A stretch of 64,000 bases of DNA from Muricea muricata (lineage: Eukaryota; Cnidaria; Anthozoa; Malacalcyonacea; Plexauridae). The translations under genes were made by a program, and so were the position numbers. The DNA is taken from NCBI GenBank assembly GCA_963855995.1, contig OY979731.1:5054942-5118941 (forward strand), in the 5' to 3' direction. A model generated the notes under the pieces. The model worked only from the letters and a program-made list of their open reading frames with translations. It searched no databases and was not told where the DNA came from. Of this stretch, positions 10,554 to 45,547 are shown piece after piece (positions within the stretch are counted from its first letter, which is position 1; each line of letters opens with the position of its first letter).

Positions 10554-11199
10554 TTGCAGAACTTAGCAAGTCGAGAATCATGTTTACGGCGGTCAAACCA
10601 TCGAGATGACCGAAACAACATGTTGAAATGTGAAACCTATAACTTGCTTGTAAACTCAAAAGAAACGACGTTAGAACCATCAAAATCGCGTTTTAAGCGT
10701 GCTAAAAGCGATTTGAGCGTAAAAACATGCTCAAATCACCAACAAAAAATTGCCGTCTTAAATCGATAACGGCGACGTTTTAGAGCTTAAAATGATGTTT
10801 TCAGTGCTAAAGTGAATGAGTTGAGCGCAATGATGTACTGCAATCACGGATCTAAAAGAGACCTTCTAAATGGATATTGCAGAACTTAGCAAGTCGAGAA
10901 TCATGTTTACGGCGGTCAAACCATCGAGATGACCGAAACAACATGTTGAAATGTGAAACCTATAACTTGCTTGTAAACTCAAAAGAAACGACGTTAGAAC
11001 CATCAAAATCGCGTTTTAAGCGTGCTAAAAGCGATTTGAGCGTAAAAACATGCTCAAATCACCAACAAAAAATTGCCGTCTTAAATCGATAACGGCGACG
11101 TTTTAGAGCTTAAAATGATGTTTTCAGTGCTAAAGTGAATGAGTTGAGCGCAATGATGTACTGCAATCACGGATCTAAAAGAGACCTTCTAAATGGATA
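10554..11199 (+). repeat. Single-monomer tandem duplication (M1-M1, 323 bp)
   Basis: Two M1 monomers lie side by side at 10554 and 10877, with no M2-M3-M4 between them. Both share the private change AAACGACGTTAG (near 10,666 and 10,989) where other M1 copies have CGACCTTAG. The pair therefore arose by a one-register slip that copied one monomer. Confidence 0.9.
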
Positions 11200-14100
11200 T
11201 TGCAGAACTTAGCAAGTCGAGAATCATGTTTACGGCGCTCAAACCATCGAGATGACCGAAACAACATGTTGAAATGACAAATCTATAACTTGCTTGTAAA
11301 CTTAAAAGAAACGACCTTAGAACCATCAAAATTGCGTTTTAAGCGTTCTAGAAGCGATTTGAGCGTGAAAACATGCTCAAATCACCAACTAAAAATTGCC
11401 GTTTTAAATCGACCATGGCGACGTTTTAGAGCTTAAAATGGTGTTTTTAGTGCAAGAGTTAACGAGTTGAGCGCAATGATGTACTGCAATCACGGACCTA
11501 AAAGAGACCTTCTAAATGGAATTTGCAGAACTTAGCAAGTCGGGAATCATGTTTTCGGCGCTAAAACCATCGAGATGAGCGAAATAACATGTTGAAATGA
11601 GAAACCTATAACTTGCTTGTAAACTGAAAAGAAACGATCTTAGAAGCATCAAAATCGCGTTTTAAGCCTTCTAGAAGCGATTTGAGCGTGAAAACATGCT
11701 CAAATCACTAACTAAAAAGTGCCGTCTTAAATCGATCACGGCGACGTTTTACAGCTTAAAATGTGGTTTTCAGCACTAAAGTGAACGAGTTGAGCGCAAT
11801 CATGTACTGCAATCACGGATCTAAAAGAGACCTTCTAAATGGATATTTCAGAACTTAGCAAGTCGAGAATCATGTTTACGGCGCTCAAACCATCGAGATG
11901 ACCGAAACAACATGTTGAAATGTGAAACCTATAACTTGCTTGTAAACTCAAAAGAAACGACCTTAAAACCATCAAAATCGCGTTTTAAGCGCTCAAAAAG
12001 CGATTTGAGCGTAAAAACATGCTCAAATCACCAACTAAAAATTGCTATCTTAAATCGACCACGGCGACGTTTTAGAGCTTAAAATGGTGTTTTTAGTGCT
12101 AGAACGAACGAGTTGAGCGCAATGATGTACTGCAATCAGGGACCTAAAAGAGACCTTCTAAATGGAAATTGCAGAACTTACCAAGTCGGGAATCATGATT
12201 TCGGCGCTCAAACCATCGAGATGAATGACACAACATGTTGAAATGAGAAACCTATAACTTTCTTGTAAACTGAAAAGAAACGATCTTAGAAGCATCAAAA
12301 TCGCGTTTTAAGTGTTCTAGAAGCGATTTGAGCGGGAAAACATGCTCAAATCACTAACTAAAAATTGCCGTCTTAAATCGATCACATCGACGTCTTACAG
12401 CTTGAAATGCTGTTTTCAGTGCTAAAGTGAACGAGTTGAGCGCAATGATGTACTTTAATGACGGATCTTAAAAAAGACCTTCTAATTTGATATTGCAGAA
12501 CTTAGCAAGTCGGGAATCATGTTTTCGGCGCTCAAACCATCGAGATGACCGAAACAACATGTTGAAATGTGAAACCTGTAACTTGCTTGTAAACTGAAAA
12601 GAAACGACCTTAGAACCATCAATATCGCGTTTTAAGCGTTCTAGAAGGAATTTGAGCGTGAAAACATGCTCAAATCACCAACTTAAAATTGCCGTCTTAA
12701 ATCGACCACGGCGACGTTTTAGAGCTTAAAATGGTGTTTTTAGTCGTATAGTGAACGAGTTGAGCGCAATGATGTACTGCAATCACGGACCTAAAAGAGA
12801 CCTTCTAAATGGAATTTGCAGAACTTACCAAGTCGGGAATCATGATTTCGGCGCTCAAACCATCGAGATGAATGAAAAAACATGTTGAAATGAGAAACCT
12901 ATAACTTGCTTGTAAACTGAAAAGAAACGATCTTAGAACCATCAAAATCGCGTTTTAAGCGTTCTAGAAGCAATTTGAGCGTGAAAACATGTTAAAATAA
13001 CTAACTAAAAATTGCCGTCTTAAATCGATCACATCGACGTTTTACAGCTTGAAATGCTGTTTTCAGTGCTAAAGTGAACGAGTTGAGCGCAATGATGTAC
13101 TTTAATGACGGATCTTAAAAAAGACCTTCTAATTTGATATTGCAGAACTTAGCAAGTCGGGAATCATGTTTTCGGCGCTCAAACCATCGAGATGACCGAA
13201 ACAACATGTTGAAATGTGAAACCTATAACTTGCTTGTAAACTGAAAAGAAACGACCTTAGAACCATCAAAATCGCGTTTTAAGCGTTCTAGAAGTAATTT
13301 GAGCGTGAAAACATGCTCAAATCACCAACTTAAAATTGCCGTCTTAAATCGACCACGGCGACGTTTTAGAGCTTAAAATGGTGTTTTTAGTCCTATAGTG
13401 AACGAGTTGAGCGCAATGATGTACTGCAATCACGGACCTAAAAGAGACCTTCTAAATGGAATTTGCAGAACTTACCAAGTCGGGAATCATGATTTCGGCG
13501 CTCAAACCATCGAGATGAATGAAAAAACATGTTGAAATGAGAAACCTATAACTTGCTTGTAAACTGAAAAGAAACGATCTTAGAACCATCAAAATCGCGT
13601 TTTAAGCGTTCTAGAAGCAATTTGAGCGTGAAAACATGTTAAAATAACTAACTAAAAATTGCCGTCTTAAATCGATCACATCGACGTTTTACAGCTTGAA
13701 ATGCTGTTTTCAGTGCTAAAGTGAACGAGTTGAGCGCAATGATGTACTGCAATGACGGTTCTAAAAAAAGACCTTCTAATTTGATATTGCAGAACTTAGC
13801 AAGTCCGGAATCATGTTTTTGGCGCTCAAACCATCGAGATGACCGAAACAACATGTTGAAATGTGAAACCTATAACTTGCTTGTACACTGAAAAGAAACG
13901 ACCTTAGAACCATCAAAATCGCGTTTTAAGCGTTCTAGAAGTAATTTTAGCGTGAAAACATGCTCAAATCACCAACTAAAAATTGCTGTCTTAAATCGAT
14001 CACGGCGACGTTTTACAGCTTAAAATGCGGTTTTCAGTGCTAAAGTGAACGAGTTGAGCGCAATGATGTACTGCAATCACGGATCTAAAAGAGACCTTCT

Positions 14101-16695
14101 AAATGGATATTGCAGAACTTAGCAAGTCGAGAATCATGTTTACGGCGGTCAAACCATCGAGATGTCCGAAACAACATGTTGAAATGTGAAACCTATAACT
14201 TGCTTGTAAACTCAAAAGAAACGACCTTAGAACCATCAAAATCGCGTTTTAAGCCTGCTAAAAGCGATTTGAGCGTAAAAACATGCTCAAATCATCAACA
14301 AAAAATTGCCGTCTTAAATCGATAACGGCGACGTTTTAGAGCTTAAAATGATGTTTTCAGTGCTAAAGTGAATGAGTTGAGCGCAATGATGTACTGCAAT
14401 CACGGATCTAAAAGAGACCTTCTAAATGGATATTGCAGAACTTAGCAAGTCGAGAATCATGTTTACGGCGCTCAAACCATCGAGATGACCGAAACAACAT
14501 GTTGAAATGACAAATCTATAACTTGCTTGTAAACTTAAAAGAAACGGCCTTAGAACCATCAAAATTGCGTTTTAAGCGTTCGAGAAGCGATTTGAGCGTG
14601 AAAACATGCTCAAATCACCAACTAAAAATTGCCGTTTTAAATCGACCATGGCGACGTTTTAGAGCTTAAAATGGTGTTTTTAGTGCTAGAGTTAACGAGT
14701 TGAGCGCAATAATGTACTGCAATCACGGACCTAAAAGAGACCTTCTAAATGGAATTTGCAGAACTTAGCAAGTCGGGAATCATGTTTTCGGCGCTAAAAC
14801 CATCGAGATGAGCGAAATAACATGTTGAAATGAGAAAGCTATAACTTGCTAGTAAACTGAAAAGAAACGATCTTAGAACCATCAAAATCGCGTTTTAAGC
14901 GTTCTAGAAGCAATTTGAGCGTGAAAACATGTTAAAATAACTAACTAAAAATTGCCGTCTTAAATCGATCACATCGACGTTTTACAGCTTGAAATGCTGT
15001 TTTCAGTGCTAAAGTGAACGAGTTGAGCGCAATGATGTACTGCAATGACGGTTCTAAAAAAAGACCTTCTAATTTGATATTGCAGAACTTAGCAAGTCCG
15101 GAATCATGTTTTTGGCGCTCAAACCATCGAGATGACCGAAACAACATGTTGAAATGTGAAACCTATAACTTGCTTGTACACTGAAAAGAAACGACCTTAG
15201 AACCATCAAAATCGCGTTTTAAGCGTTCTAGAAGTAATTTTAGCGTGAAAACATGCTCAAATCACCAACTAAAAATTGCTGTCTTAAATCGATCACGGCG
15301 ACGTTTTACAGCTTAAAATGCGGTTTTCAGTGCTAAAGTGAACGAGTTGAGCGCAATGATGTACTGCAATCACGGATCTAAAAGAGACCTTCTAAATGGA
15401 TATTGCAGAACTTAGCAAGTCGAGAATCATGTTTACGGCGGTCAAACCATCGAGATGACCGAAACAACATGTTTAAATGTGAAACCTATAACTTGCTTGT
15501 AAACTCAAAAGAAACGACCTTAGAACCATCAAAATCGCGTTTTAAGCGTGCTAAAAGCGATTTGAGCGTAAAAACATGCTCAAATCATCAACAAAAAATT
15601 GCCGTCTTAAATCGATAACGGCGACGTTTTAGAGCTTAAAATGATGTTTTCAGTGCTAAAGTGAATGAGTTGAGCGCAATGATGTACTGCAATCACGGAT
15701 CTAAAAGAGACCTTCTAAATGGATATTGCAGAACTTAGCAAGTCGAGAATCATGTTTACGGCGCTCAAACCATCGAGATGACCGAAACAACATGTTGAAA
15801 TGACAAATCTATAACTTGCTTGTAAACTTAAAAGAAACGACCTTAGAACCATCAAAATTGCGTTTTAAGCGTTCTAGAAGCGATTTGAGCGTGAAAACAT
15901 GCTCAAATCACCAACTAAAAATAGTTGTTTTAAATCGACCATGGCGACGTTTTAGAGCTTAAAATGGTGTTTTTAGTGCTAGAGTTAACGAGTTGAGCGC
16001 AATGATGTACTGCAATCACGGACCTAAAAGAGACCTTCTAAATGGAATTTGCAGAACTAAGCAAGTCGGGAATCATGTTTTCGGCGCTAAAACCATCGAG
16101 ATGAGCGAAATAACATGTTGAAATGAGAAACCTATAACTTGCTAGTAAACTGAAAAGAAACGATCTTAGAACCATCAAAATCGCGTTTTAAGCGTTCTAG
16201 AAGCGATTTGAGCGTGCAAACATGTTAAAATAACTAACTAAAAATTGCCGTCTTAAATCGATCACATCGACGTTTTACAGCTTGAAATGCTGTTTTCAGT
16301 GCTAAAGTGAACGAGTTGAGCGCAATGATGTACTGCAATGACGGTTCTAAAAAAAGACCTTCTAATTTGATATTGCAGAACTTAGCAAGTCCGGAATCAT
16401 GTTTTTGGCGCTCAAACCATCGAGATGACCGAAACAACATGTTGAAATGTGAAACCTATAACTTGCTTGTACACTGAAAAGAAACGACCTTAGAACCATC
16501 AAAATCGCGTTTTAAGCGTTCTAGAAGTAATTTTAGCGTGAAAACATGCTCAAATCACCAACTAAAAATTGCTGTCTTAAATCGATCACGGCGACGTTTT
16601 ACAGCTTAAAATGCGGTTTTCAGTGCTAAAGTGAACGAGTTGAGCGCAATGATGTACTGCAATCACGGATCTAAAAGAGACCTTCTAAATGGATA
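10877..16695 (+). repeat. Composite 18-monomer HOR, copy 1 (5,819 bp)
   Basis: Order: M1 M2 M3' X1 X2 X3 X4 X3 X4 M4, then two tetramers M1 M2 M3 M4 starting at 14110 and 15403. The next unit repeats all class changes at an offset of 5,819 bp. Private changes shared with the next unit include GAGAAAGCT near 14,834 (also near 20,653) and AAATCATCAAC near 14,290 and 15,583 (the latter also near 20,109). Differences I noticed include GCAAGAG near 11,452, ATCAATATCGC near 12,618 and AGTCGTATAG near 12,742. I estimate the two copies are about 99% identical. Confidence 0.9.
11990..12011. other. Alternative hairpin of class X1
   Basis: X1 monomers read CGCTCAAA (11,990-11,997), then AAGCGA, then TTTGAGCG (12,004-12,011), an 8-bp inverted repeat with a 6-nt spacer. 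Its right half is also the left arm of the ordinary hairpin, so the two structures are mutually exclusive. Other copies lie near 7,142, 17,809, 26,860, 30,416 and 36,881. The new arm replaces the usual CGTTCTAG. Confidence 0.8.
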
Positions 16696-19600
16696 TTGCA
16701 GAACTTAGCAAGTCGAGAATCATGTTTACGGCGGTCAAACCATCGAGATGACCGAAACAACATGTTGAAATGTGAAACCTATAACTTGCTTGTAAACTCA
16801 AAAGAAACGACCTTAGAACCATCAAAATCGCGTTTTAAGCGTGCTAAAAGCGATTTGAGCGTAAAAACATGCTCAAATCACCAACAAAAAATTGCCGTCT
16901 TAAATCGATAACGGCGACGTTTTAGAGCTTAAAATGATGTTTTCAGTGCTAAAGTGAATGAGTTGAGCGCAATGATGTACTGCAATCACGGATCTCAAAG
17001 AGACCTTCTAAATGGATATTGCAGAACTTAGCAAGTCGAGAATCATGTTTACGGCGCTCAAACCATCGAGATGACCGAAACAACATGTTGAAATGACAAA
17101 TCTATAACTTGCTTGTAAACTTAAAAGAAACGACCTTAGAACCATCAAAATTGCGTTTTAAGCGTTCTAGAAGCGATTTGAGCGTGAAAACATGCTCAAA
17201 TCACCAACTAAAAATTGCCGTTTTAAATCGACCATGGCGACGTTTTAGAGCTTAAAATGGTGTTTTTAGTGCTAGAGTTAACGAGTTGAGCGCAATGATG
17301 TACTGCAATCACGGACCTAAAAGAGACCTTCTAAATGGAATTTGCAGAACTTAGCAAGTCGGGAATCATGTTTTCGGCGCTAAAACCATCGAGATGAGCG
17401 AAATAACATGTTGAAATGAGAAACCTATAACTTGCTAGTAAACTGAAAAGAAACGATCTTAGAAATATCAAAATCGCGTTTTAAGCCTTCTAGAAGCGAT
17501 TTGAGCGTGAAAACATGCTCAAATCACTAACTAAAAAGTGCCGTCTTAAATCGATCACGGCGACGTTTTACAGCTTAAAATGTGGTTTTCAGCACTAAAG
17601 TGAACGAGTTGAGCGCAATCATGTACTGCAATCACGGATCTAAAAGAGACCTTTTAAATGGATATTTCAGAACTTAGCAAGTCGAGAATCATGTTTACGG
17701 CGCTCAAACTATCGAGATGACCGAAACAACATGTTGAAATGTGAAACCTATAACTTGCTTGTAAACTCAAAAGAAACGACCTTAAAACCATCAAAATCGC
17801 GTTTTAAGCGCTCAAAAAGCGATTTGAGCGTAAAAACATGCTCAAATCACCAACTAAAAATTGCTATCTTAAATCGACCACGGCGACGTTTTAGAGCTTA
17901 AAATGGTGTTTTTAGTGCTAGAACGAACGAGTTGAGCGCAATGATGTACTGCAATCAGGGACCTAAAAGAGACCTTCTAAATGGAAATTGCAGAACTTAC
18001 CAAGTCGGGAATCATGATTTCGGCGCTCAAACCATCGAGATGAATGACACAACATGTTGAAATGAGAAACCTATAACTTTCTTGTAAACTGAAAAGAAAC
18101 GATCTTAGAAGCATCAAAATCGCGTTTTAAGTGTTCTAGAAGCGATTTGAGCGGGAAAACATGCTCAAATCACTAACTAAAAATTGCCGTCTTAAATCGA
18201 TCACATCGACGTCTTACAGCTTGAAATGCTGTTTTCAGTGCTAAAGTGAACGAGTTGAGCGCAATGATGTACTTTAATGACGGATCTTAAAAAAGACCTT
18301 CTAATTTGATATTGCAGAACTTAGCAAGTCGGGAATCATGTTTTCGGCGCTCAAACCATCGAGATGACCGAAACAACATGTTGAAATGTGAAACCTGTAA
18401 CTTGCTTGTAAACTGAAAAGAAACGACCTTAGAACCATCAAAATCGCGTTTTAAGCGTTCTAGAAGGAATTTGAGCGTGAAAACATGCTCAAATCACCAA
18501 CTTAAAATTGCCGTCTTAAATCGACCACGGCGACGTTTTAGAGCTTAAAATGGTGTTTTTAGTCCTATAGTGAACGAGTTGAGCGCAATGATGTACTGCA
18601 ATCACGGACCTAAAAGAGACCTTCTAAATGGAATTTGCAGAACTTACCAAGTCGGGAATCATGATTTCGGCGCTCAAACCATCGAGATGAATGAAAAAAC
18701 ATGTTGAAATGAGAAACCTATAACTTGCTTGTAAACTGAAAAGAAACGATCTTAGAACCATCAAAATCGCGTTTTAAGTGTTCTAGAAGCAATTTGAGCG
18801 TGAAAACATGTTAAAATAACTAACTAAAAATTGCCGTCTTAAATCGATCACATCGACGTTTTACAGCTTGAAATGCTGTTTTCAGTGCTAAAGTGAACGA
18901 GTTGAGCGCAATGATGTACTTTAATGACGGATCTTAAAAAAGACCTTCTAATTTGATATTGCAGAACTTAGCAAAACGGGAATCATGTTTTCGGCGCTCA
19001 AACCATCGAGATGACCGAAACAACATGTTGAAATGTGAAACCTATAACTTGCTTGTAAACTGAAAAGAAACGACCTTAGAACCATCAAAATCGCGTTTTA
19101 AGCGTTCTAGAAGTAATTTGAGCGTGAAAACATGCTCAAATCACCAACTTAAAATTGCCGTCTTAAATCGACCACGGCGACGTTTTAGAGCTTAAAATGG
19201 TGTTTTTAGTCCTATAGTGAACGAGTTGAGCGCAATGATGTACTGCAATCACGGACCTAAAAGAGACCTTCTAAATGGAATTTGCAGATTTTACCAAGTC
19301 GGGAATCATGATTTCGGCGCTCAAACCATCGAGATGAATGAAAAAACATGTTGAAATGAGAAACCTATAACTAGCTTGTAAACTGAAAAGAAACGATCTT
19401 AGAACCATCAAAATCGCGTTTTAAGCGTTCTAGAAGCAATTTGAGCGTGAAAACATGTTAAAATAACTAACTAAAAATTGCCGTCTTAAATCGATCACAT
19501 CGACGTTTTACAGCTTGAAATGCTGTTTTCAGTGCTAAAGTGAACGAGTTGAGCGCAATGATGTACTGCAATGACGGTTCTAAAAAAAGACCTTCTAATT

Positions 19601-22514
19601 TGATATTGCAGAACTTAGCAAGTCCGGAATCATGTTTTTGGCGCTCAAACCATCGAGATGACCGAAACAACATGTTGAAATGTGAAACCTATAACTTGCT
19701 TGTACACTGAAAAGAAACGACCTTAGAACCATCAAAATCGCGTTTTAAGCGTTCTAGAAGTAATTTTAGCGTGAAAACATGCTCAAATCACCAACTAAAA
19801 ATTGCTGTCTTAAATCGATCACGGCGACGTTTTACAGCTTAAAATGCGGTTTTCAGTGCTAAAGTGAACGAGTTGAGCGCAATGATGTACTGCAATCACG
19901 GATCTAAAAGAGACCTTCTAAATGGATATTGCAGAACTTAGCAAGTCGAGAATCATGTTTACGGCGGTCAAACCATCGAGATGACCGAAACAACATGTTG
20001 AAATGTGAAACCTATAACTTGCTTGTAAACTCAAAAGAAACGACCTTAGAACCATCAAAATCGCGTTTTAAGCGTGCTAAAAGCGATTTGAGCGTAAAAA
20101 CATGCTCAAATCATCAACAAAAAATTGCCGTCTTAAATCGATAACGGCGACGTTTTAGAGCTTAAAATGATGTTTTCAGTGCTAAAGTGAATGAGTTGAG
20201 CGCAATGATGTACTGCAATCACGGATCTAAAAGAGACCTTCTAAATGGATATTGCAGAACTTAGCAAGTCGAGAATCATGTTTACGGCGCTCAAACCATC
20301 GAGATGACCGAAACAACATGTTGAAATGACAAATCTATAACTTGCTTGTAAACTTAAAAGAAACGACCTTAGAACCATCAAAATTGCGTTTTAAGCGTTC
20401 TAGAAGCGATTTGAGCGTGAAAACATGCTCAAATCACCAACTAAAAATTGCCGTTTTAAATCGACCATGGCGACGTTTTAGAGCTTAAAATGGTGTTTTT
20501 AGTGCTAGAGTTAACGAGTTGAGCGCAATGATGTACTGCAATCACGGACCTAAAAGAGACCTTCTAAATGGAATTTGCAGAACTTAGCAAGTCGGGAATC
20601 ATGTTTTCGGCGCTAAAACCATCGAGATGAGCGAAATAACATGTTGAAATGAGAAAGCTATAACTTGCTAGTAAACTGAAAAGAAACGATCTTAGAACCA
20701 TCAAAATCGCGTTTTAAGCGTTCTAGAAGCAATTTGAGCGTGAAAACATGTTAAAATAACTAACTAAAAATTGCCGTCTTAAATCGATCACATCGACGTT
20801 TTACAGCTTGAAATGCTGTTTTCAGTGCTAAAGTGAACGAGTTGAGCGCAATGATGTACTGCAATGACGGTTCTAAAAAAAGACCTTCTAATTTGATATT
20901 GCAGAACTTAGCAAGTCCGGAATCATGTTTTTGGCGCTCAAACCATCGAGATGACCGAAACAACATGTTGAAATGTGAAACCTATAACTTGCTTGTACAC
21001 TGAAAAGAAACGACCTTAGAACCATCAAAATCGCGTTTTAAGCGTTCTAGAAGTAATTTTAGCGTGAAAACATGCTCAAATCACCAACTAAAAATTGCTG
21101 TCTTAAATCGATCACGGCGACGTTTTACAGCTTAAAATGCGGTTTTCAGTGCTAAAGTGAACGAGTTGAGCGCAATGATGTACTGCAATCACGGATCTAA
21201 AAGAGACCTTCTAAATGGATATTGCAGAACTTAGCAAGTCGAGAATCATGTTTACGGCGGTCAAACCATCGAGATGACCGAAACAACATGTTGAAATGTG
21301 AAACCTATAACTTGCTTGTAAACTCAAAAGAAACGACCTTAGAACCATCAAAATCGCGTTTTAAGCGTGCTAAAAGCGATTTGAGCGTAAAAACATGCTC
21401 AAATCACCAACAAAAAATTGCCGTCTTAAATCGATAACGGCGACGTTTTAGAGCTTAAAATGATGTTTTCAGTGCTAAAGTGAATGAGTTGAGCGCAATG
21501 ATGTACTGCAATCACAGATCTAAAAGAGACCTTCTAAATGGATATTGCAGAACTTAGCAAGTCGAGAATCATGTTTACGGCGCTCAAACCATCGAGATGA
21601 CCGAAACAACATGTTGAAATGACAAATCTATAACTTGCTTGTAAACTTAAAAGAAACGACCTTAGAACCATCAAAATTGCGTTTTAAGCGTTCTAGAAGC
21701 GATTTGAGCGTGAAAACATGCTCAAATCACCAACTAAAAATTGCCGTTTTAAATCGACCATGGCGACGTTTTAGAGCTTAAAATGGTGTTTTTAGTGCTA
21801 GAGTTAACGAGTTGAGCGCAATGATGTACTGCAATCACGGACCTAAAAGAGACCTTCTAAATGGAATTTGCAGAACTTAGCAAGTCGGGAATCATGTTTT
21901 CGGCGCTAAAACCATCGAGATGAGCGAAATAACATGTATAAATGAGAAACCTATAACTTGCTAGTAAACTGAAAAGAAACGATCTTACAACCATCAAAAT
22001 CGCGTTTTAAGCGTTCTAGAAGCAATTTGAGCGTGAAAACATGTTAAAATAACTAACTAAAAATTGCCGTCTTAAATCGATCACATCGACGTTTTACAGC
22101 TTGAAATGCTGTTTTCAGTGCTAAAGTGAACGAGTTGAGCGCAATGATGTACTGCAATGACGGTTCTAAAAAAAGACCTTCTAATTTGATATTGCAGAAC
22201 TTAGCAAGTCCGGAATCATGTTTTTGGCGCTCAAACCATCGAGATGACCGAAACAACATGTTGAAATGTGAAACCTATAACTTGCTTGTACACTGAAAAG
22301 AAACGACCTTAGAACCATCAAAATCGCGTTTTAAGCGTTCTAGAAGTAATTTTAGCGTGAAAACATGCTCAAATCATCAACTAAAAATTGCTGTCTTAAA
22401 TCGATCACGGCGACGTTTTACAGCTTAAAATGCGGTTTTCAGTGCTAAAGTGAACGAGTTGAGCGCAATGATGTACTGCAATCACGGATCTAAAAGAGAC
22501 CTTCTAAATGGATA
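16696..22514 (+). repeat. Composite 18-monomer HOR, copy 2 (5,819 bp)
   Basis: Same monomer order as the preceding unit, with the X3-X4 dimer twice (18,312-19,605) and two tetramers at 19929 and 21222. Its own differences include CTTAGAAATATC near 17,458, GCAAAACGGG near 18,971, GCAGATTTTACC near 19,285 and CATGTATAAATG near 21,934. The AAATATC change also occurs in the units at 29303 and 35768 but not in the one at 10877, so this unit is closer to those downstream in that stretch. Confidence 0.9.
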
Positions 22515-25500: not shown

Positions 25501-26069
25501 GAAACCTATAACTTGCTAGTAAACTGAAAATAAACGATCTTAGAACCATCAAAATCGCGTTTTAAGCGTTCTAGAAGCAATTTGAGCGTGAAAACATGTT
25601 AAAATAACTAACTAAAAATTGCCGTCTTAAATCGATCACATCGACGTTTTACAGCTTGAAATGCTGTTTTCAGTGCTAAAGTGAACGAGTTGAGCGCAAT
25701 GATGTACTGCAATGACGGTTCTAAAAAAAGACCTTCTAATTTGATATTGCAGAACTTAGCAAGTCCGGAATCATGTTTTTGGCGCTCAAACCATCGAGAT
25801 GACCGAAACAATATGTTGAAATGTGAAACCTATAACTTGCTTGTACACTGAAAAGAAACGACCTTAGAACCATCAAAATCGCGTTTTAAGCGTTCTAGAA
25901 GTAATTTTAGCGTGAAAACATGCTCAAATCACCAACTAAAAATTTCTGTCTTAAATCGATCACGGCGACGTTTTACAGCTTAAAATACGGTTTTCAGTGC
26001 TAAAGTGAACGAGTTGAGCGCAATGATGTACTGCAATCACGGATCTAAAAGAGACCTTCTAAATGGATA
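22515..26069 (+). repeat. Rearranged tetramer remnants between composite units
   Basis: Order: M1 (22515), M4 (22838), M1 (23161), M2, an M3-to-M4 hybrid (about 23,807), M2 (24,130), M3, M4, M1 (25100), M3, M4. The M1-M4 junction near 22,840 looks like a two-monomer deletion of a tetramer: its left side matches the M2 start near 2,450-2,480 and its right side matches the M4 start near 3,119. The hybrid near 23,807 begins as M3 (GCGCTAAAACC) and ends as M4 (CTTGTACACTG, TAATTTTAGCG), switching near the CAACATGTTG-equivalent palindrome. Confidence 0.82.
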
Positions 26070-26392
26070 TTGCAGAACTTAGCAAGTCGAGAATCATGTT
26101 TACGGCGGTCAAACCATCGAGATGACCGAAACAACATGTTGAAATGTGAAACCTATAACTTGCTTGTAAACTCAAAAGAAACGACCTTAGAACCATCAAA
26201 ATCGCGTTTTAAGCGTGCTAAAAGCGATTTGAGCGTAAAAACATGCTCAAATCACCAACAAAAAATTGCCGTCTTAAATCGATAACGGCGACGTTTTAGA
26301 GCTTAAAATGATGTTTTCAGTGCTAAAGTGAATGAGTTGAGCGCAATGATGTACTGCAATCACGGATCTAAAAGAGACCTTCTAAATGGATA
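24453..26392 (+). repeat. Tandem duplication of a three-monomer block (970 bp, M3-M4-M1)
   Basis: Copies at 24,453-25,422 and 25,423-26,392, with a short third start reaching about 26,537. Both share CAATATGTTG in place of the palindrome CAACATGTTG (near 24,839 and 25,809), AATTTCTGTC (near 24,972 and 25,942) and TAAAATACGG (near 25,012 and 25,982). The change AAAATAAACG occurs in the second copy and the partial third (near 25,528 and 26,498) but not in the first. This orders the events. Confidence 0.9.
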
Positions 26393-29302: not shown

Positions 29303-32300
29303 TTGCAGAACTTAGCAAGTCGAGAATCATGTTTACGGCGGTCAAACCATCGAGATGACCGAAACAACATGTTGAAATGTGAAACCTATAACTTGCTTGT
29401 AAACTCAAAAGAAACGACCTTAGAACCATCAAAATCGCGTTTTAAGCGTGCTAAAAGCGATTTGAGCGTAAAAACATGCTCAAATCACCAACAAAAAATT
29501 GCCGTCTTAAATCGATAACGGCGACGTTTTAGAGCTTAAAATGATGTTTTCAGTGCTAAAGTGAATGAGTTGAGCGCAATGATGTACTGCAATCACGGAT
29601 CTAAAAGAGACCTTCTAAATGGATATTGCAGAACTTAGCAAGTCGAGAATCATGTTTACGGCGCTCAAACCATCGAGATGACCGAAACAACATGTTGAAA
29701 TGACAAATCTATAACTTGCTTGTAAACTTAAAAGAAACGACCTTAGAACCATCAAAATTGCGTTTTAAGCGTTCTAGAAGCGATTTGAGCGTGAAAACAT
29801 GCTCAAATCACCAACTAAAAATTGCCGTTTTAAATCGACCATGGCGACGTTTTAGAGCTTAAAATGGTGTTTTTAGTGCTAGAGTTAACGAGTTGAGCGC
29901 AATGATGTACTGCAATCACGGACCTAAAAGAGACCTTCTAAATGGAATTTGCAGAACTTAGCAAGTCGGGAATCATGTTTTCGGCGCTAAAACCATCGAG
30001 ATGAGCGAAATAACATGTTGAAATGAGAAACCTATAACTTGCTAGTAAACTGAAAAGAAACGATCTTAGAAATATCAAAATCGCGTTTTAAGCCTTCTAG
30101 AAGCGATTTGAGCGTGAAAACATGCTCAAATCACTAACTAAAAAGTGCCGTCTTAAATCGATCACGGCGACGTTTTACAGCTTAAAATGTGGTTTTCAGC
30201 ACTAAAGTGAACGAGTTGAGCGCAATCATGTACTGCAATCACGGATCTAAAAGAGACCTTCTAAATGGATATTTCAGAACTTAGCAAGTCGAGAATCATG
30301 TTTACGGCGCTCAAACCATCGAGATGACCGAAACAACATGTTGAAATGTGAAACCTATAACTTGCTTGTAAACTCAAAAGAAACGACCTTAAAACCATCA
30401 AAATCGCGTTTTAAGCGCTCAAAAAGCGATTTGAGCGTAAAAACATGCTCAAATCACCAACTAAAAATTGCTATCTTAAATCGACCACGGCGACGTTTTA
30501 GAGCTTAAAATGGTGTTTTTAGTGCTAGAACGAACGAGTTGAGCGCAATGATGTACTGCAATCAGGGACCTAAAAGAGACCTTCTAAATGGAAATTGCAG
30601 AACTTACCAAGTCGGGAATCATGATTTCGGCGCTCAAACCATCGAGATGAATGACACAACATGTTGAAATGAGAAACCTATAACTTTCTTGTAAACTGAA
30701 AAGAAACGATCTTAGAAGCATCAAAATCGCGTTTTAAGTATTCTAGAAGCGATTTGAGCGGGAAAACATGCTCAAATCACTAACTAAAAATTTCCGTCTT
30801 AAATCGATCACATCGACGTCTTACAGCTTGAAATGCTGTTTTCAGTGCTAAAGTGAACGAGTTGAGCGCAATGATGTACTTTAATGACGGATCTTAAAAA
30901 AGACCTTCTAATTTGATATTGCAGAACTTAGCAAGTCGGGAATCATGTTTTCGGCGCTCAAACCATCGAGATGACCGAAACAACATGTTGAAATGTGAAA
31001 CCTATAACTTGCTTGTAAACTGAAAAGAAACGACCTTAGAACCATCAAAATCGCGTTTTAAGCGTTCTAGAAGGAATTTGAGCGTGAAAAAATGCTCAAA
31101 TCACCAACTTAAAATTGCCGTCTTAAATCGACCACAGCGACGTTTTAGAGCTTAAAATGGTGTTTTTAGTCCTATAGTGAACGAGTTGAGCGCAATGATG
31201 TACTGCAATCACGGACCTAAAAGAGACCTTCTAAATGGAATTTGCAGAACTTACCAAGTCGGGAATCATGATTTCGGCGCTCAAACCATCGAGATGAATG
31301 AAAAAACATGTTGAAATGAGAAACCTATAACTTGCTTGTAAACTGAAAAGAAACGATCTTAGAACCATCAAAATCGCGTTTTAAGCGTTCTAGAAGCAAT
31401 TTGAGCGTGAAAACATGTTAAAATAACTAACTAAAAATTGCCGTCTTAAATCGATCACATCGACGTTTTACAGCTTGAAATGCTGTTTTCAGTGCTAAAG
31501 TGAACGAGTTGAGCGCAATGATGTACTGCAATGACGGTTCTAAAAAAAGACCTTCTAATTTGATATTGCAGAACTTAGCAAGTCCGGAATCATGTTTTTG
31601 GCGCTCAAACCATCGAGATGACCGAAACAACATGTTGAAATGTGAAACCTATAACTTGCTTGTACACTGAAAAGAAACGACCTTAGAACCATCAAAATCG
31701 CGTTTTAAGCGTTCTAGAAGTAATTTTAGCGTGAAAACATGCTCAAATCACCAACTAAAAATTGCTGTCTTAAATCGATCACGGCGACGTTTTACAGCTT
31801 AAAATGCGGTTTTCAGTGCTAAAGTGAACGAGTTGAGCGCAATGATGTACTGCAATCACGGATCTAAAAGAGACCTTCTAAATGGATATTGCAGAACTTA
31901 GCAAGTCGAGAATCATGTTTACGGCGGTCAAACCATCGAGATGACCGAAACAACATGTTGAAATGTGAAACCTATAACTTGCTTGTAAACTCAAAAGAAA
32001 CGACCTTAGAACCATCAAAATCGCGTTTTAAGCGTGCTAAAAGCGATTTGAGCGTAAAAACATGCTCAAATCACCAACAAAAAATTGCCGTCTTAAATCG
32101 ATAACGGCGACGTTTTAGAGCTTAAAATGATGTTTTCAGTGCTACAGTGAATGAGTTGAGCGCAATGATGTACTGCAATCACGGATCTAAAAGAGACCTT
32201 CTAAATGGATATTGCAGAACTTAGCAAGTCGAGAATCATGTTTACGGCGCTCAAACCATCGAGATGACCGAAACAACATGTTGAAATGACAAATCTATAA

Positions 32301-35300
32301 CTTGCTTGTAAACTTAAAAGAAACGACCTTAGAACCATCAAAATTGCGTTTTAAGCGTTCTAGAAGCGATTTGAGCGTGAAAACATGCTCAAATCACCAA
32401 CTAAAAATTGCCGTTTTAAATCGACCAAGGCGACGTTTTAGAGCTTAAAATGGTGTTTTTAGTGCTAGAGTTAACGAGTTGAGCGCAATGATGTACTGCA
32501 ATCACGGACCTAAAAGAGACCTTCTAAATGGAATTTGCAGAACTTAGCAAGTCGGGAATCATGTTTTCGGCGCTAAAACCATCGAGATGAGCGAAATAAC
32601 ATGTTGAAATGAGAAACCTATAACTTGCTAGTAAACTGAAAAGAAACGATCTTAGAACCATCAAAATCGCGTTTTAAGCGTTCTAGAAGCAATTTGAGCG
32701 TGAAAACATGTTAAAATAACTAACTAAAAATTGCCGTCTTAAATCGATCACATCGACGTTTTACAGCTTGAAATGCTGTTTTCAGTGCTAAAGTGAACGA
32801 GTTGAGCGCAATGATGTACTGCAATGACGGTTCTAAAAAAAGACCTTCTAATTTGATATTGCAGCACTTAGCAAGTCCGGAATCATGTTTTTGGCGCTCA
32901 AACCATCGAGATGACCGAAACAACATGTTGAAATGTGAAACCTATAACTTGCTTGTACACTGAAAAGAAACGACCTTAGAACCATCAAAATCGCGTTTTA
33001 AGCGTTCTAGAAGTAATTTTAGCGTGAAAACATGCTCAAATCACCAACTAAAAATTGCTGTCTTAAATCGATCACGGCAACGTTTTACAGCTTAAAATGC
33101 GGTTTTCAGTGCTAAAGTGAACGAGTTGAGCGCAATGATGTACTGCAATCACGGATCTAAAAGAGACCTTCTAAATGGATATTGCAGAACTTAGCAAGTC
33201 GAGAATCATGTTTACGGCGGTCAAACCATCGAGATGACCGAAACAACATGTTGAAATGTGAAACCTATAACTTGCTTGTAAACTCAAAAGAAACGACCTT
33301 AGAACCATCAAAATCGCGTTTTAAGCGTGCTAAAAGCGATTTGAGCGTAAAAACATGCTCAAATCACCAACAAAAAATTGCCGTCTTAAATCGATAACGG
33401 CGACGTTTTAGAGCTTAAAATGATGTTTTCAGTGCTAAAGTGAATGAGTTGAGCGCAATGATGTACTGCAATCACGGATCTAAAAGAGACCTTCTAAATG
33501 GATATTGCAGAACTTAGCAAGTCGAGAATCATGTTTACGGCGCTCAAACCATCGAGATGACCGAAACAACATGTTGAAATGACAAATCTATAACTTGCTT
33601 GTAAACTTAAAAGAAACGACCTTAGAACCATCAAAATTGCGTTTTAAGCGTTCTAGAAGCGATTTGAGCGTGAAAACATGCTCAAATCACCAACTAAAAA
33701 TTGCCGTTTTAAATCGACCATGGCGACGTTTTAGAGCTTAAAATGGTGTTTTTAGTGCTAGAGTTAACGAGTTGAGCGCAATGATGTACTGCAATCACGG
33801 ACCTAAAAGAGACCTTCTAAATGGAATTTGCAGAACTTAGCAAGTCGGGAATCACGTTTTCGGCGCTAAAACCATCGAGATGAGCGAAATAACATGTTGA
33901 AATGAGAAACCTATAACTTGCTAGTAAACTGAAAAGAAACGATCTTAGAACCATCAAAATCGCGTTTTAAGCGTTCTAGAAGCAATTTGAGCGTGAAAAC
34001 ATGTTAAAATAACTAACTAAAAATTGCCGTCTTAAATCGATCACATCGACGTTTTAGAGCTTAAAATGCTGTTTTCAGTGCTAAAGTGGACGAGTTGAGC
34101 GCAATGATGTACTGCAATGACGGTTCTAAAAAAAGACCTTCTAATTTGATATTGTAGAACTTAGCAAGTCCGGAATCATGTTTTTGGCGCTCAAACCATC
34201 GAGATGACCGAAACAACATGTTGAAATGTGAAACCTATAACTTGCTTGTACACTGAAAAGAAACGACCTTAGAACCATAAAAATCGCGTTTTAAGCGTTC
34301 TAGAAGTAATTTTAGCGTGAAAACATGCTCAAATCACCAACTAAAAATTGCTGTCTTAAATCGATCACGGCGACGTTTTACAGCTTAAAATGCGGTTTTC
34401 AGTGCTAAAGTGAACGAGTTGAGCGCAATGATGTACTGCAATCACGTATCTAAAAGAGACCTTCTAAATGGATATTGCAGAACTTAGCAAGTCGAGAATC
34501 ATGTTTACGGCGGTCAAACCATCGAGATGACCGAAACAACATGTTGAAATGTGAAACCTATAACTTGCTTGTAAACTCAAAAGAAACGACCTTAGAACCA
34601 TCAAAATCGCGTTTTAAGCGTGCTAAAAGCGATTTGAGCGTAAAAACATGCTCAAATCACCAACAAAAAATTGCCGTCTTAAATCGATAACGGCGACGTT
34701 TTAAAGCTTAAAATGATGTTTTCAGTGCTAAAGTGAATGAGTTGAGCGCAATGATGTACTGCAATCACGGATCTAAAAGAGACCTTCTAAATGGATATTG
34801 CAGAACTTAGCAAGTCGGAAATCATGTTTTCGGCGCTAAAACCATCGAGATGAGCGAAATAACATGTTGAAATGAGAAACCTATAACTTGCTAGTAAACT
34901 GAAAAGAAACGATGTTAGAACCATCAAAATCGCGTTTTAAGCCTTCTAGAAGCGATTTGAGCGTGAAAACATGCTCAAATCACTAACTAAAAAGTGCCGT
35001 CTTAAATCGATCACGGCGACGTTTTACAGCTTAAAATGTGGTTTTCAGCACTAAAGTGAACGAGTTGAGCGCAATCATGTACTGCAATCACGGATCTAAA
35101 AGAGACCTTCTAAATGGATATTTCAGAACTTAGCAAGTCGAGAATCATGTTTACGGCGCTCAAACCATCGAGATGAGCGAAATAACATGTTGAAATGAGA
35201 AACCTATAACTTGCTAGTAAACTGAAAAGAAACGATCTTAGAACCATCAAAATCGCGTTTTAAGCGTTCTAGAAGCAATTTGAGCGTGAAAACGTGTTAA

Positions 35301-35767
35301 AATAACTAACTAAAAATTGCCGTCTTAAATCGATCACATCGACGTTTTACAGCTTGAAATGCTGCTTTCAGTGCTAAAGTGAACGAGTTGAGCGCAATGA
35401 TGTACTGCAATGACGGTTCTAAAAAAAGACCTTCTAATTTGATATTGCAGAACTTAGCAAGTCCGGAATCATGTTTTTGGCGCTCAAACCATCGAGATGA
35501 CCGAAACAACATGTTGAAATGTGAAACCTATAACTTGCTTGTACACTGAAAAGAAACGACCTTAGAACCATCAAAATCGCGTTTTAAGCGTTCTAGAAGT
35601 AATTTTAGCGTGAAAACATGCTCAAATCACCAACTAAAAATTGCTGTCTTAAATCGATCACGGCGACGTTTTACAGCTTAAAATGCGGTTTTCAGTGCTA
35701 AAGTGAACGAGTTGAGCGCAATGATGTACTGCAATCACGTATCTAAAAGAGACCTTCTAAATGGATA
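29303..35767 (+). repeat. Composite HOR with one X3-X4 dimer and three tetramers (6,465 bp)
   Basis: Order: M1 M2 M3' X1 X2 X3 X4 M4, then tetramers at 31889, 33182 and 34475. It has one X3-X4 pair where the units at 10877 and 16696 have two. The M3' carries CTTAGAAATATC. Private markers include GCTACAGTG near 32,141, GCAGCACTTAG near 32,862, AAGTGGACGAG near 34,085 and ATTGTAGAAC near 34,151. All four recur about 7,759 bp downstream in the next unit. Confidence 0.88.
34475..35767 (+). repeat. Mosaic tetramer of normal length
   Basis: This unit is 1,293 bp like the regular tetramers but reads M1, M3' (GCCTTCTAGAAGCG), an X1 start that becomes M3, then M4. The X1-to-M3 switch lies near 35,155-35,185, where GGCGCTCAAACC is followed by GAGCGAAATAAC. 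The length is kept although the internal order is not M1-M2-M3-M4, so exchange happened in register by whole monomers. Confidence 0.8.
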
Positions 35768-38700
35768 TTGCAGAACTTAGCAAGTCGAGAATCATGTTTA
35801 CGGCGGTCAAACCATCGAGATGACCGAAACAACATGTTGAAATGTGAAAGCTATAACTTGCTTGTAAACTCAAAAGAAACGACCTTAGAACCATCAAAAT
35901 CGCGTTTTAAGCGTGCTAAAAGCGATTTGAGCGTAAAAACATGCTCAAATCACCAACAAAAAATTGCCGTCTTAAATCGATAACGGCGACGTTTTAGAGC
36001 TTAAAATGATGTTTTCAGTGCTAAAGTGAATGAGTTGAGCGCAATGATGTACTGCAATCACGGATCTAAAAGAGACCTTCTAAATGGATATTGCAGAACT
36101 TAGCAAGTCGAGAATCATGTTTACGGCGCTCAAACCATCGAGATGACCGAAACAACATGTTGAAATGACAAATCTATAACTTGCTTGTAAACTTAAAAGA
36201 AACGACCTTAGAACCATCAAAATTGCGTTTTAAGCGTTCTAGAAGCGATTTGAGCGTGAAAACATGCTCAAATCACCAACTAAAAATTGCCGTTTTAAAT
36301 CGACCATGGCGACGTTTTAGAGCTTAAAATGGTGTTTTTAGTGCTAGAGTTAACGAGTTGAGCGCAATGATGTACTGCAATCACGGACCTAAAAGAGACC
36401 TTCTAAATGGAATTTGCAGAACTTAGCAAGTCGGGAATCATGTTTTCGGCGCTAAAACCATCGAGATGAGCGAAATAACATGTTGAAATGAGAAACCTAT
36501 AACTTGCTAGTAAACTGAAAAGAAACGATCTTAGAAATATCAAAATCGCGTTTTAAGCCTTCTAGAAGCGATTTGAGCGTGAAAACATGCTCAAATCACT
36601 AACTAAAAAGTGCCGTCTTAAATCGATCACGGCGACGTTTTACAGCTTAAAATGTGGTTTTCAGCACTAAAGTGAACGAGTTGAGCGCAATCATGTACTG
36701 CAATCACGGATCTAAAAGAGACCTTCTAAATGGATATTTCAGAACTTAGCAAGTCGAGAATCATGTTTACGGCGCTCAAACCATCGAGATGACCGAAACA
36801 ACATGTTGAAATGTGAAACCTATAACTTGCTTGTAAACTCAAAAGAAACGACCTTAAAACCATCAAAATCGCGTTTTAAGCGCTCAAAAAGCGATTTGAG
36901 CGTAAAAACATGCTCAAATCACCAACTAAAAATTGCTATCTTAAATCGACCACGGCGACGTTTTAGAGCTTAAAATGGTGTTTTTAGTGCTAGAACGAAC
37001 GAGTTGAGCGCAATGATGTACTGCAATCAGGGACCTAAAAGAGACCTTCTAAATGGAAATTGCAGAACTTACCAAGTCGGGAATCATGATTTCGGCGCTC
37101 AAACCATCGAGATGAATGACACAACATGTTGAAATGAGAAACCTATAACTTTCTTGTAAACTGAAAAGAAACGATCTTAGAAGCATCAAAATCGCGTTTT
37201 AAGTATTCTAGAAGCGATTTGAGCGGGAAAACATGCTCAAATCACTAACTAAAAATTGCCGTCTTAAATCGATCACATCGACGTCTTACAGCTTGAAATG
37301 CTGTTTTCAGTGCTAAAGTGAACGAGTTGAGCGCAATGATGTACTTTAATGACGGATCTTAAAAAAGACCTTCTAATTTGATATTGCAGAACTTAGCAAG
37401 TCGGGAATCATGTTTTCGGCGCTCAAACCATCGAGATGACCGAAACAACATGTTGAAATGTGAAACCTGTAACTTGCTTGTAAACTGAAAAGAAACGACC
37501 TTAGAACCATCAAAATCGCGTTTTAAGCGTTCTAGAAGGAATTTGAGCGTGAAAAAATGCTCAAATCACCAACTTAAAATTGCCGTCTTAAATCGACCAC
37601 GGCGACGTTTTAGAGCTTAAAATGGTGTTTTTAGTCCTATAGTGAACGAGTTGAGCGCAATGATGTACTGCAATAACGGACCTAAAAGAGACCTTCTAAA
37701 TGGAATTTGCAGAACTTACCAAGTCGGGAATCATGATTTCGGCGCTCAAACCATCGAGATGAATGAAAAAACATGTTGAAATGAGAAACCTATAACTTGC
37801 TTGTAAACTGAAAAGAAACGATCTTAGAACCATCAAAATCGCGTTTTAAGCGTTCTAGAAGCAATTTGAGCGTGAAAACATGTTAAAATAACTAACTAAA
37901 AATTGCCGTCTTAAATCGATCACATCGACGTTTTACAGCTTGAAATGCTGTTTTCAGTGCTAAAGTGAACGAGTTGAGCGCAATGATGTACTTTAATGAC
38001 GGATCTTAAAAAAGACCTTCTAATTTCATATTGCAGAACTTAGCAAGTCGGGAATCATGTTTTCGGCGCTCAAACCATCGAGATGACCGAAACAACATGT
38101 TGAAATGTGAAACCTATAACTTGCTTGTAAACTGAAAAGAAACGACCTTAGAACCATCAAAATCGCGTTTTAAGCGTTCTAGAAGGAATTTGAGCGTGAA
38201 AAAATGCTCAAATCACCAACTTAAAATTGCCGTCTTAAATCGACCACGGCGACGTTTTAGAGCTTAAAATGGTGTTTTTAGTCCTATAGTGAACGAGTTG
38301 AGCGCAATGATGTACTGCAATCACGGACCTAAAAGAGACCTTCTAAATGGAATTTGCAGAACTTACCAAGTCGGGAATCATGATTTCGGCGCTCAAACCA
38401 TCGAGATGAATGAAAAAACATGTTGAAATGAGAAACCTATAACTTGCTTGTAAACTGAAAAGAAACGATCTTAGAACCATCAAAATCGCGTTTTAAGCGT
38501 TCTAGAAGCAATTTGAGCGTGAAAACATGTTAAAATAACTAACTAAAAATTGCCGTCTTAAATCGATCACATCGACGTTTTACAGCTTGAAATGCTGTTT
38601 TCAGTGCTAAAGTGAACGAGTTGAGCGCAATGATGTACTTTAATGACGGATCTTAAAAAAGACCTTCTAATTTGATATTGCAGAACTTAGCAAGTCGGGA

Positions 38701-41700
38701 ATCATGTTTTCGGCGCTCAAACCATCGAGATGACCGAAACAACATGTTGAAATGTGAAACCTATAACTTGCTTGTAAACTGAAAAGAAACGACCTTAGAA
38801 CCATCAAAATCGCGTTTTAAGCGTTCTAGAAGGAATTTGAGCGTGAAAAAATGCTCAAATCACCAACTTAAAATTGCCGTCTTAAATCGACCACGGCGAC
38901 GTTTTAGAGCTTAAAATGGTGTTTTTAGTCCTATAGTGAACGAGTTGAGCGCAATGATGTACTGCAATCACGGACCTAAAAGAGACCTTCTAAATGGAAT
39001 TTGCAGAACTTACCAAGTCGGGAATCATGATTTCGGCGCTCAAACCATCGAGATGAATGAAAAAACATGTTGAAATGAGAAACCTATAACTTGCTTGTAA
39101 ACTGAAAAGAAACGATCTTAGAACCATCAAAATCGCGTTTTAAGCGTTCTAGAAGCAATTTGAGCGTGAAAACATGTTAAAATAACTAACTAAAAATTGC
39201 CGTCTTAAATCGATCACATCGACGTTTTACAGCTTGAAATGCTGTTTTCAGTGCTAAAGTGAACGAGTTGAGCGCAATGATGTACTGCAATGACGGTTCT
39301 AAAAAAAGACCTTCTAATTTGATATTGCAGAACTTAGCAAGTCCGGAATCATGTTTTCGGCGCTCAAACCATCGAGATGACCGAAACAACATGTTGAAAT
39401 GTGAAACCTATAACTTGCTTGTACACTGAAAAGAAACGACCTTAGAACCATCAAAATCGCGTTTTAAGCGTTCTAGAAGTAATTTTAGCGTGAAAACATG
39501 CTCAAATCACCAACTAAAAATTGCTGTCTTAAATCGATCACGGCGACGTTTTACAGCTTAAAATGCGGTTTTCAGTGCTAAAGTGAACGAGTTGAGCGCA
39601 ATGATGTACTGCAATCACGGATCTAAAAGAGACCTTCTAAATGGATATTGCAGAACTTAGCAAGTCGAGAATCATGTTTACGGCGGTCAAACCATCGAGA
39701 TGACCGAAACAACATGTTGAAATGTGAAACCTATAACTTGCTTGTAAACTCAAAAGAAACGACCTTAGAACCATCAAAATCGCGTTTTAAGCGTGCTAAA
39801 AGCGATTTGAGCGTAAAAACATGCTCAAATCACCAACAAAAAATTGCCGTCTTAAATCGATAACGGCGACGTTTTAGAGCTTAAAATGATGTTTTCAGTG
39901 CTACAGTGAATGAGTTGAACGCAATGATGTACTGCAATCACGGATCTAAAAGAGACCTTCTAAATGGATATTGCAGAACTTAGCAAGTCGAGAATCATGT
40001 TTACGGCGCTCAAACCATCGAGATGACCGAAACAACATGTTGAAATGACAAATCTATAACTTGCTTGTAAACTTAAAAGAAACGACCTTAGAACCATCAA
40101 AATTGCGTTTTAAGCGTTCTAGAAGCGATTTGAGCGTGAAAACATGCTCAAATCACCAACTAAAAATTGCCGTTTTAAATCGACCATGGCGACGTTTTAG
40201 AGCTTAAAATGGTGTTTTTAGTGCTAGAGTTAACGAGTTGAGCGCAATGATGTACTGCAATCACGGACCTAAAAGAGACCTTCTAAATGGAATTTGCAGA
40301 ACTTAGCAAGTCGGGAATCATGTTTTCGGCGCTAAAACCATCGAGATGAGCGAAATAACATGTTGAAATGAGAAACCTATAACTTGCTAGTAAACTGAAA
40401 AGAAACGATCTTAGAACCATCAAAATCGCGTTTTAAGCGTTCTAGAAGCAATTTGAGCGTGAAAACATGTTAAAATAACTAACTAAAAATTGCCGTCTTA
40501 AATCGATCACATCGACGTTTTACAGCTTGAAATGCTGTTTTCAGTGCTAAAGTGAACGAGTTGAGCGCAATGATGTACTGCAATGACGGTTCTAAAAAAA
40601 GACCTTCTAATTTGATATTGCAGCACTTAGCAAGTCCGGAATCATGTTTACGGCGCTCAAACCATCGAGATGACCGAAACAACATGTTGAAATGTGAAAC
40701 CTATAACTTGCTTGTACACTGAAAAGAAACGACCTTAGAACCATCAAAATCGCGTTTTAAGCGTTCTAGAAGTAATTTTAGCGTGAAAACATGCTCAAAT
40801 CACCAACTAAAAATTGCTGTCTTAAATCGATCACGGCAACGTTTTACAGCTTAAAATGCGGTTTTCAGTGCTAAAGTGAACGAGTTGAGCGCAATGATGT
40901 ACTGCAATCACGGATCTAAAAGAGACCTTCTAAATGGATATTGCAGAACTTAGCAAGTCGAGAATCATGTTTACGGCGGTCAAACCATCGAGATGACCGA
41001 AACAACATGTTGAAATGTGAAACCTATAACTTGCTTGTAAACTCAAAAGAAACGACCTTAGAACCATCAAAATCGCGTTTTAAGCGTGCTAAAAGCGATT
41101 TGAGCGTAAAAACATGCTCAAATCACCAACAAAAAATTGCCGTCTTAAATCGATAACGGCGACGTTTTAGAGCTTAAAATGATGTTTTCAGTGCTAAAGT
41201 GAATGAGTTGAGCGCAATGATGTACTGCAATCACGGATCTAAAAGAGACCTTCTAAATGGATATTGCAGAACTTAGCAAGTCGAGAATCATGTTTACGGC
41301 GCTCAAACCATCGAGATGACCGAAACAACATGTTGAAATGACAAATCTATAACTTGCTTGTAAACTTAAAAGAAACGACCTTAGAACCATCAAAATTGCG
41401 TTTTAAGCGTTCTAGAAGCGATTTGAGCGTGAAAACATGCTCAAATCACCAACTAAAAATTGCCGTTTTAAATCGACCATGGCGACGTTTTAGAGCTTAA
41501 AATGGTGTTTTTAGTGCTAGAGTTAACGAGTTGAGCGCAATGATGTACTGCAATCACGGACCTAAAAGAGACCTTCTAAATGGAATTTGCAGAACTTAGC
41601 AAGTCGGGAATCATGTTTTCGGCGCTAAAACCATCGAGATGAGCGAAATAACATGTTGAAATGAGAAACCTATAACTTGCTAGTAAACTGAAAAGAAACG

Positions 41701-42233
41701 ATCTTAGAACCATCAAAATCGCGTTTTAAGCGTTCTAGAAGCAATTTGAGCGTGAAAACATGTTAAAATAACTAACTAAAAATTGCCGTCTTAAATCGAT
41801 CACATCGACGTTTTACAGCTTGAAATGCTGTTTTCAGTGCTAAAGTGGACGAGTTGAGCGCAATGATGTACTGCAATGACGGTTCTAAAAAAAGACCTTC
41901 TAATTTGATATTGTAGAACTTAGCAAGTCCGGAATCATGTTTTTGGCGCTCAAACCATCGAGATGACCGAAACAACATGTTGAAATGTGAAACCTATAAC
42001 TTGCTTGTACACTGAAAAGAAACGACCTTAGAACCATAAAAATCGCGTTTTAAGCGTTCTAGAAGTAATTTTAGCGTGAAAACATGCTCAAATCACCAAC
42101 TAAAAATTTCTGTCTTAAATCGATCACGGCGACGTTTTACAGCTTAAAATACGGTTTTCAGTGCTAAAGTGAACGAGTTGAGCGCAATGATGTACTGCAA
42201 TCACGGATCTAAAAGAGACCTTCTAAATGGATA
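35768..42233 (+). repeat. Composite HOR with three X3-X4 dimers and two tetramers
   Basis: Order: M1 M2 M3' X1 X2 (X3 X4) x3 M4, then M1 M2 M3 M4 at 39648 and at 40941. The last M4 (about 41,911) runs into a 970-bp duplication. Up to X2 it is nearly the same as the unit starting at 29303. From M4 onward it matches that unit at an offset of 7,759 bp; the shift comes from two extra dimers. Confidence 0.87.
37384..39324 (+). repeat. Three tandem copies of the 646-bp X3-X4 dimer
   Basis: X3 starts near 37,384, 38,031 and 38,678, each followed by X4. The marker CCAACTTAAAATTG recurs near 37,569, 38,216 and 38,863. All three share a loop change, GTGAAAAAATGC in place of GTGAAAACATGC. The second and third copies read CCTATAAC where the first reads CCTGTAAC, so the extra copies probably derive from one pair. 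The same dimer occurs once near 30,919-31,565 and twice near 12,493-13,786 and 18,312-19,605. Confidence 0.9.
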
Positions 42234-42979: not shown

Positions 42980-43203
42980 AACTGAAAAGAAACGACCTTA
43001 GAACCATCAAAATCGCGTTTTAAGCCTTCTAGAAGCGATTTGAGCGTGAAAACATGCTCAAATGACTAACTAAAAATTGCCGTCTTAAATCGATCACGGC
43101 GAAGTTTTACAGCTTAAAATGCGGTTTTCAGTGCTAAAGTGAACGAGTTGAGCGCAATGATGTACTGCAATCACGGATCTAAAAGAGACCTTCTAAATGG
43201 ATA

Positions 43204-45465: not shown

Positions 45466-45547
45466 ATTGTAGAACTTAGCAAGTCGGGAATCATGTTTTT
45501 GGCGCTCAAGCCAACGAGATGACCGAAACAACATGTTGAAATGTGAA

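Follow-up and report, generated by a model that had tools for sequence, protein, structure and literature searches.

The window, by which we mean the whole stretch of 64 kb that was analysed, corresponds to positions 5054942-5118941 of C16, an 11.6-Mb contig of a genome that comprises 74 contigs and 453 Mb. It is filled by a single head-to-tail array, which TRF reported as 198 copies of a 323-base period between positions 2 and 64000. The monomers stand head to tail and are of one length (spacings 322-325 for the 197 complete monomers), with a mean identity of 91.7% between them. The coordinates of the features are given in Table 1. From 43850 to 64000 we noticed other monomer classes, spacings of 322 and 325 bp and a 17-mer unit, whose copy at 58708 is cut off by the window end. 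The observed/expected ratio of CpG across the window was 1.46.

Table 1. Features of the satellite array (positions are those of the window; class letters are explained in the text)
Feature	Position	Strand	Basis or remark
323-bp satellite array	1..64000	+	TRF period 323; two domains meeting at ~42.9-43.9 kb
Two-domain division of the array	meeting at ~42.9-43.9 kb		monomer classes and spacings change there
A-BCDEBCDEB-C, right part of an n=0 relative (original cut)	209..3764	+	
Unit 1, 18 monomers, CDMNA(KF)2BCDEBCDEB	10877..16695	+	class string
K-F run of unit 1, n=2	12493..13786	+	core comparison
Unit 2 frame, 18 monomers, n=2 (CDMNA KFKF BCDEBCDEB)	16696..22514	+	class string
K-F run of unit 2, n=2	18312..19605	+	core comparison
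21 extra monomers past unit 2	22515..29302	+	broken tetramers and a fifth MNAKF, then G-O-E-B
Unit 3 frame, 16 monomers, n=1 (CDMNA KF BCDEBCDEB)	29303..34474	+	class string
K-F run of unit 3, n=1	30919..31565	+	K has the later-K state at column 86
Broken tetramer C-M-E-B after unit 3	34475..35767	+	class string
Unit 4, 20 monomers, n=3 (CDMNA KFKFKF BCDEBCDEB)	35768..42233	+	class string
K-F run of unit 4, n=3	37384..39324	+	
Domain 2, 17-mer higher-order repeat of 5493 bp	53215..64000	+	copies from 53215 and 58708, 99.85%

The array extends past the window, and its region spans ~5.0-5.7 Mb of the contig. The surroundings were examined over 264 kb, joined from adjacent stretches of C16. Along this joined sequence the satellite is broken into pieces on the minus strand at 4985.0-5011.8 kb; from 5011.6 kb to at least 5248.9 kb it runs on the plus strand, apart from a short piece at 5130.8 kb that is inverted. 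Satellite matches of up to 100% reappear on the minus strand at 5.56-5.73 Mb, where the 30 kb examined carry many of the monomer classes of the window and other monomers match at only 95-97%. The strand switches at 5011.7 kb, at 5130.8 kb and in 5.56-5.73 Mb; the array therefore carries inversions. Irregular monomer spacings of 85, 495 and 643 bases were seen at 5014-5032 kb and 5174-5200 kb of the contig, and in the stretch L009 minus-strand monomers recurrently bear an internal duplication of 94 bases (periods 94 and 416). Outside the window, in the stretch L010, the satellite holds a retrotransposon (~3775-8195 of that stretch) with a GAAAT-like tail and two open frames with Pfam matches to endonuclease and reverse transcriptase; we read this insertion as being of the non-LTR type. 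A search of plasmid and phage sequences with 1940 bases gave no match, ARAGORN found no tRNA genes in the window, and Rfam at gathering scores found nothing at positions 10000-20000. A literature search for a 323-bp satellite named no match, a result of little weight given its partial coverage.

The preliminary description had proposed a nested hierarchy running from monomer through dimer or tetramer to composite unit. The analysis upholds this hierarchy and adds levels below and above it. The monomer consensus of the first domain has a self-identity of 46% at lag 108, whereas 1000 shuffles reached a best value of 33% on average and 37% at most; judged from this periodicity, the 323-bp monomer resembles a trimer of ~108 bp that has diverged, which would be an older level. 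Above the level of the unit there are block duplications, for example one of 29 monomers at 99.94% and a lag of 51 monomers.

Composite units and the monomer cut

The 197 complete monomers were clustered at 3%, and each was given a class letter (the classes M1, M2, M3', X1, X2, X3, X4 and M4 of the preliminary description are here C, D, M, N, A, K, F and B, respectively). The resulting class string contains the frame C-D-M-N-A-(K-F)n-B-CDEB-CDEB four times, with starts at exactly 10877, 16696, 29303 and 35768 and with n=2, 2, 1 and 3, confirming the frame and the dimer counts proposed earlier for these four units; all n values come from one assembled haplotype. These counts were stable at clustering thresholds of 2, 2.5, 3 and 4% and, at 3%, when the cut point was moved by 80, 160, 200 or 260 bp. 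Two class assignments changed under these treatments: class F merged into class E at the 4% threshold and at the 80-bp shift, and at shifts of 160, 200 and 260 the closing monomer of the unit 4 frame changed class because the sequence after it differs. The frame occurs four times in the first 130 monomers; 2000 shuffled class orders did not contain it once, and none of 2000 first-order Markov strings reached four (mean 0.18, maximum 3), the frame having been picked for this test after it had been seen. The unit cores are 99.26-99.72% identical, as against the mean of 91.7% between window monomers. The units are not all contiguous, since the segment 22515-29302 separates units 2 and 3 and the tetramer C-M-E-B separates units 3 and 4. 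The variants of the unit differ by whole monomers, and hybrid monomer classes are present.

Moving the cut ~200 bases downstream gives units of the form CD-MN-(AF)n-EB-CDEB-CDEB, with unit 4 ending in C and not in B. The shifted cut gives a simpler frame: three CDEB tetramers, the first of which carries MN(AF)n as an insert between its D and its E. The unit length is then 12 + 2 + 2n monomers, that is 18, 18, 16 and 20, and the monomers called X2 (A) and inner X4 (F) in the preliminary description are parts of one and the same dimer. In the original cut the 12 F copies of the window end differently at their 3' side. At columns 290-304 the tail is of A type in six inner copies, which stand in runs and are followed by K, L or G, and of E type in the four terminal copies, which precede B; the F consensus was built without the copies at 3765 (followed by G) and 7321 (followed by D), both of which have further tails. 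The F monomer is A-like from its 5' end to column 58 and E-like over most of its middle. The F/A hybrids can be an effect of the cut point, and both the unit frame and its hybrids are shown to depend on the position at which the monomers are cut. Among 79 monomer classes, 37 fit a two-parent mosaic under our own cut-offs, a count in which chance fits are uncontrolled.

Relatives of the frame lie beyond the four units. The fifth MNAKF within the window starts at 26393, and its K has G at column 86. Upstream on the contig, a frame MNAKFK(20)EB is found at 5033.2 kb and a shortened copy at 5050.6 kb. Two further relatives, at 5038.0 and 5054.5 kb, carry a different X1 and have n=0 in the original cut; in the shifted cut their A passes straight into B. 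For the relative at 209..3764, C, D and M are located outside the window and its class (21) is cut by the window start. In total, 18 AF dimers (shifted register) lie between 5.01 and 5.10 Mb of the contig, and the copy number of the AF run in the stretch ranges from 0 to 3 in the original cut.

Probable order of events in the dimer run

To follow the history of n, we compared the core of 14 monomers shared by the four units, a comparison that leaves aside the fifth MNAKF (26393) and the upstream frames. All nine of the two-two SNP splits outside the run group the units as (1,2)(3,4). The four n values are therefore not independent: units 1 and 2 may share n=2 by inheritance, and the values of 1 and 3 then take two changes. 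Within the run, column 86 carries G in the first K of units 1, 2 and 4, and A in the later K monomers and in the single K of unit 3. Among the classes compared, the other classes have A at this column, G being the derived state. Every K of units 3 and 4 has A at column 175. Most simply, the ancestor would have had n=2, with unit 3 then losing a dimer but keeping the later K and unit 4 gaining one. An ancestor with n=1, to whose descendants G at column 86 spread later by conversion, is conceivable as well. The idea that n=1 and n=3 are both products of one exchange was rejected on the states of column 86, because the K of unit 3 (A) needs an exchange before this column and the K monomers of unit 4 (G, A, A) need one after it.

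The last two dimers of unit 4 (from 37907 and 38554 in the shifted register) differ at one site only, and at two or more sites when compared with the other seven copies. This near-identity fits a recent local copy. Dimers from separate places (18188 and 27239) also differ at only one site, and the close pair within unit 4 is therefore weak proof of local copying.

We consider it very probable that the locus is an ordinary satellite array of higher-order repeats that evolves by unequal homologous exchange, and that differences in n are structural variants of its unit. Such exchange would take place between sister chromatids or by an equivalent repair of breaks. In the first event, an F-type monomer would have recombined with an A-type monomer two positions away, with the switch in columns 230-289, turning one dimer into two. 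Unit 3 would then have lost one dimer by exchange between column 230 of A and column 85 of K, and unit 4 would have gained one by exchange between column 87 of K and column 289 of F. The run would vary because near-identical dimers stand in tandem there. At the diagnostic sites the dimer copies combine the states of neighbouring monomer types, a mosaic pattern that unequal homologous exchange would be predicted to leave. Similar mosaics would also be expected from conversion, from break-induced replication or from slippage of long units; that crossover, rather than conversion or break-induced replication, lies behind those seen here is what we infer. The history is drawn from four units and few diagnostic sites. 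It offers a small, fairly well-resolved case of nested satellite repeats growing and shrinking, in which a single assembly is enough to recover some of the sequence of events and approximate breakpoints.

Placement of putative exchanges along the array

The preliminary description had noted that the expansion point sits at the same place in each unit and had taken this to suggest a preferred site of exchange or slippage. The shared place stands at the level of the dimer run, where it is expected because in-register pairing can add or remove dimers that are already in tandem. The preferred site itself is not supported. It would be a sequence in or near the insert, for example columns 230-289 of A/F, that breaks often and drives the dimer count. 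The breakpoint intervals of the three inferred events measure 60, 179 and 526 bases of the 646-base dimer and have 60 columns in common, 230-289 of A/F, but randomly placed intervals share a point in 32% of 20000 trials. Within the frame, copy number changes in the run only, and the 14-monomer core of the four units shows no change of count; this contrast is partly a selection effect because the four units were picked for having the remainder of the frame in common. The tetramers, which also stand in tandem, keep one count across the four units. A perfect dyad of 9 bp with a 10-base loop occupies columns 157-184 of the monomer consensus, but it lies outside columns 230-289 and belongs to the monomer consensus generally. 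DNA folding of three 150-base pieces gave z values of -0.4, -2.1 and 1.4 against shuffles, so that one of the three folds better than its shuffles.

To place switches of ancestry, we applied a copying model to 202 monomers (5.032-5.097 Mb of C16), which returned 29 or 36 switches for the two jump probabilities used. The switches that could be located to within 160 bases, 23 and 30 in number, were evenly distributed along the monomer (chi-square 1.98 and 1.97, 7 df); this histogram omits wider switches, 6 of 29 and 6 of 36. At the lower jump probability, 1e-6, and with wide switches included, 20 switches fell within 10877-42233. Four of these were in the dimer runs including A, which make up 20 of the 97 monomers; this proportion and the even spread along the monomer argue against a preferred site, although the tests have little power. 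Pairs of related blocks differed by whole monomers elsewhere too: of 37 such rows, which are non-independent, 9 came from 5.156-5.229 Mb, an interval in which no K monomer was found. Taken together, a special exchange site is neither needed nor supported, and we regard its existence as unlikely.

In a related proposal, the AF run would be a fast counter within a slower unit, changing faster than the rest, perhaps through breaks in columns 230-289 of A/F. We hold this to be quite unlikely; if true, the AF counter could mark sister exchange in the array. Least probable is an assembly error by which a true n=2 would have been collapsed to n=1 in unit 3 and expanded to n=3 in unit 4: the run dimers are ~98-99.9% alike, as such an error would favour, but the runs are at most 1.9 kb, which is shorter than an ordinary long read, several copies are marked by differences found in no other copy, and the diagnostic states are combined in units 3 and 4 in ways particular to them.

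Comparison with known higher-order repeats

By analogy with the higher-order repeats of human alpha satellite, which it resembles, the array can be described as a higher-order satellite repeat that has structural variants. As in human alpha satellite (PMC9549924), these variants involve gains and losses of whole monomers and hybrid monomers, the latter being abundant in the human repeats. In human alpha-satellite repeats, a hybrid monomer is visible or not according to the cut point of the monomers (PMC9549924, section 2.5.2), and the F/A hybrids behave alike in this respect. The primate alpha-satellite monomer is ~171 bp, compared with 323 bp here (best internal lag 108). No match to the CENP-B box was found in the window with up to one mismatch. 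The 323-bp monomer and the lack of a CENP-B box in the window rule out primate alpha satellite as the identity of the array.

The human D1Z5 array is reported to have evolved by accumulated unequal crossovers together with conversion (PMC2853522). As in our array, adjacent repeats there fall into subsets that have diagnostic variants in common, and unequal crossovers are placed at the junctions between subsets. The variants given there for D1Z5 are nucleotide differences between repeats, whereas here the number of dimers varies too. For chromosome 5, PMC11062924 describes new alpha-satellite higher-order variants of four and six monomers, which are thought to derive from a longer unit by loss of whole monomers; both there and here shorter units would come from longer ones in this way. 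In contrast to those variants, the short and long states here stand near each other in few copies, and no variant has spread. In a survey of animals and plants, 76 of the 171 species with Sanger data were reported to have a clear higher-order structure, and its short reads rarely showed units of three or more monomers, unlike the units described here (PMC4053949). Set beside these systems, the gain and loss of dimers at this locus looks like ordinary behaviour for a satellite array.
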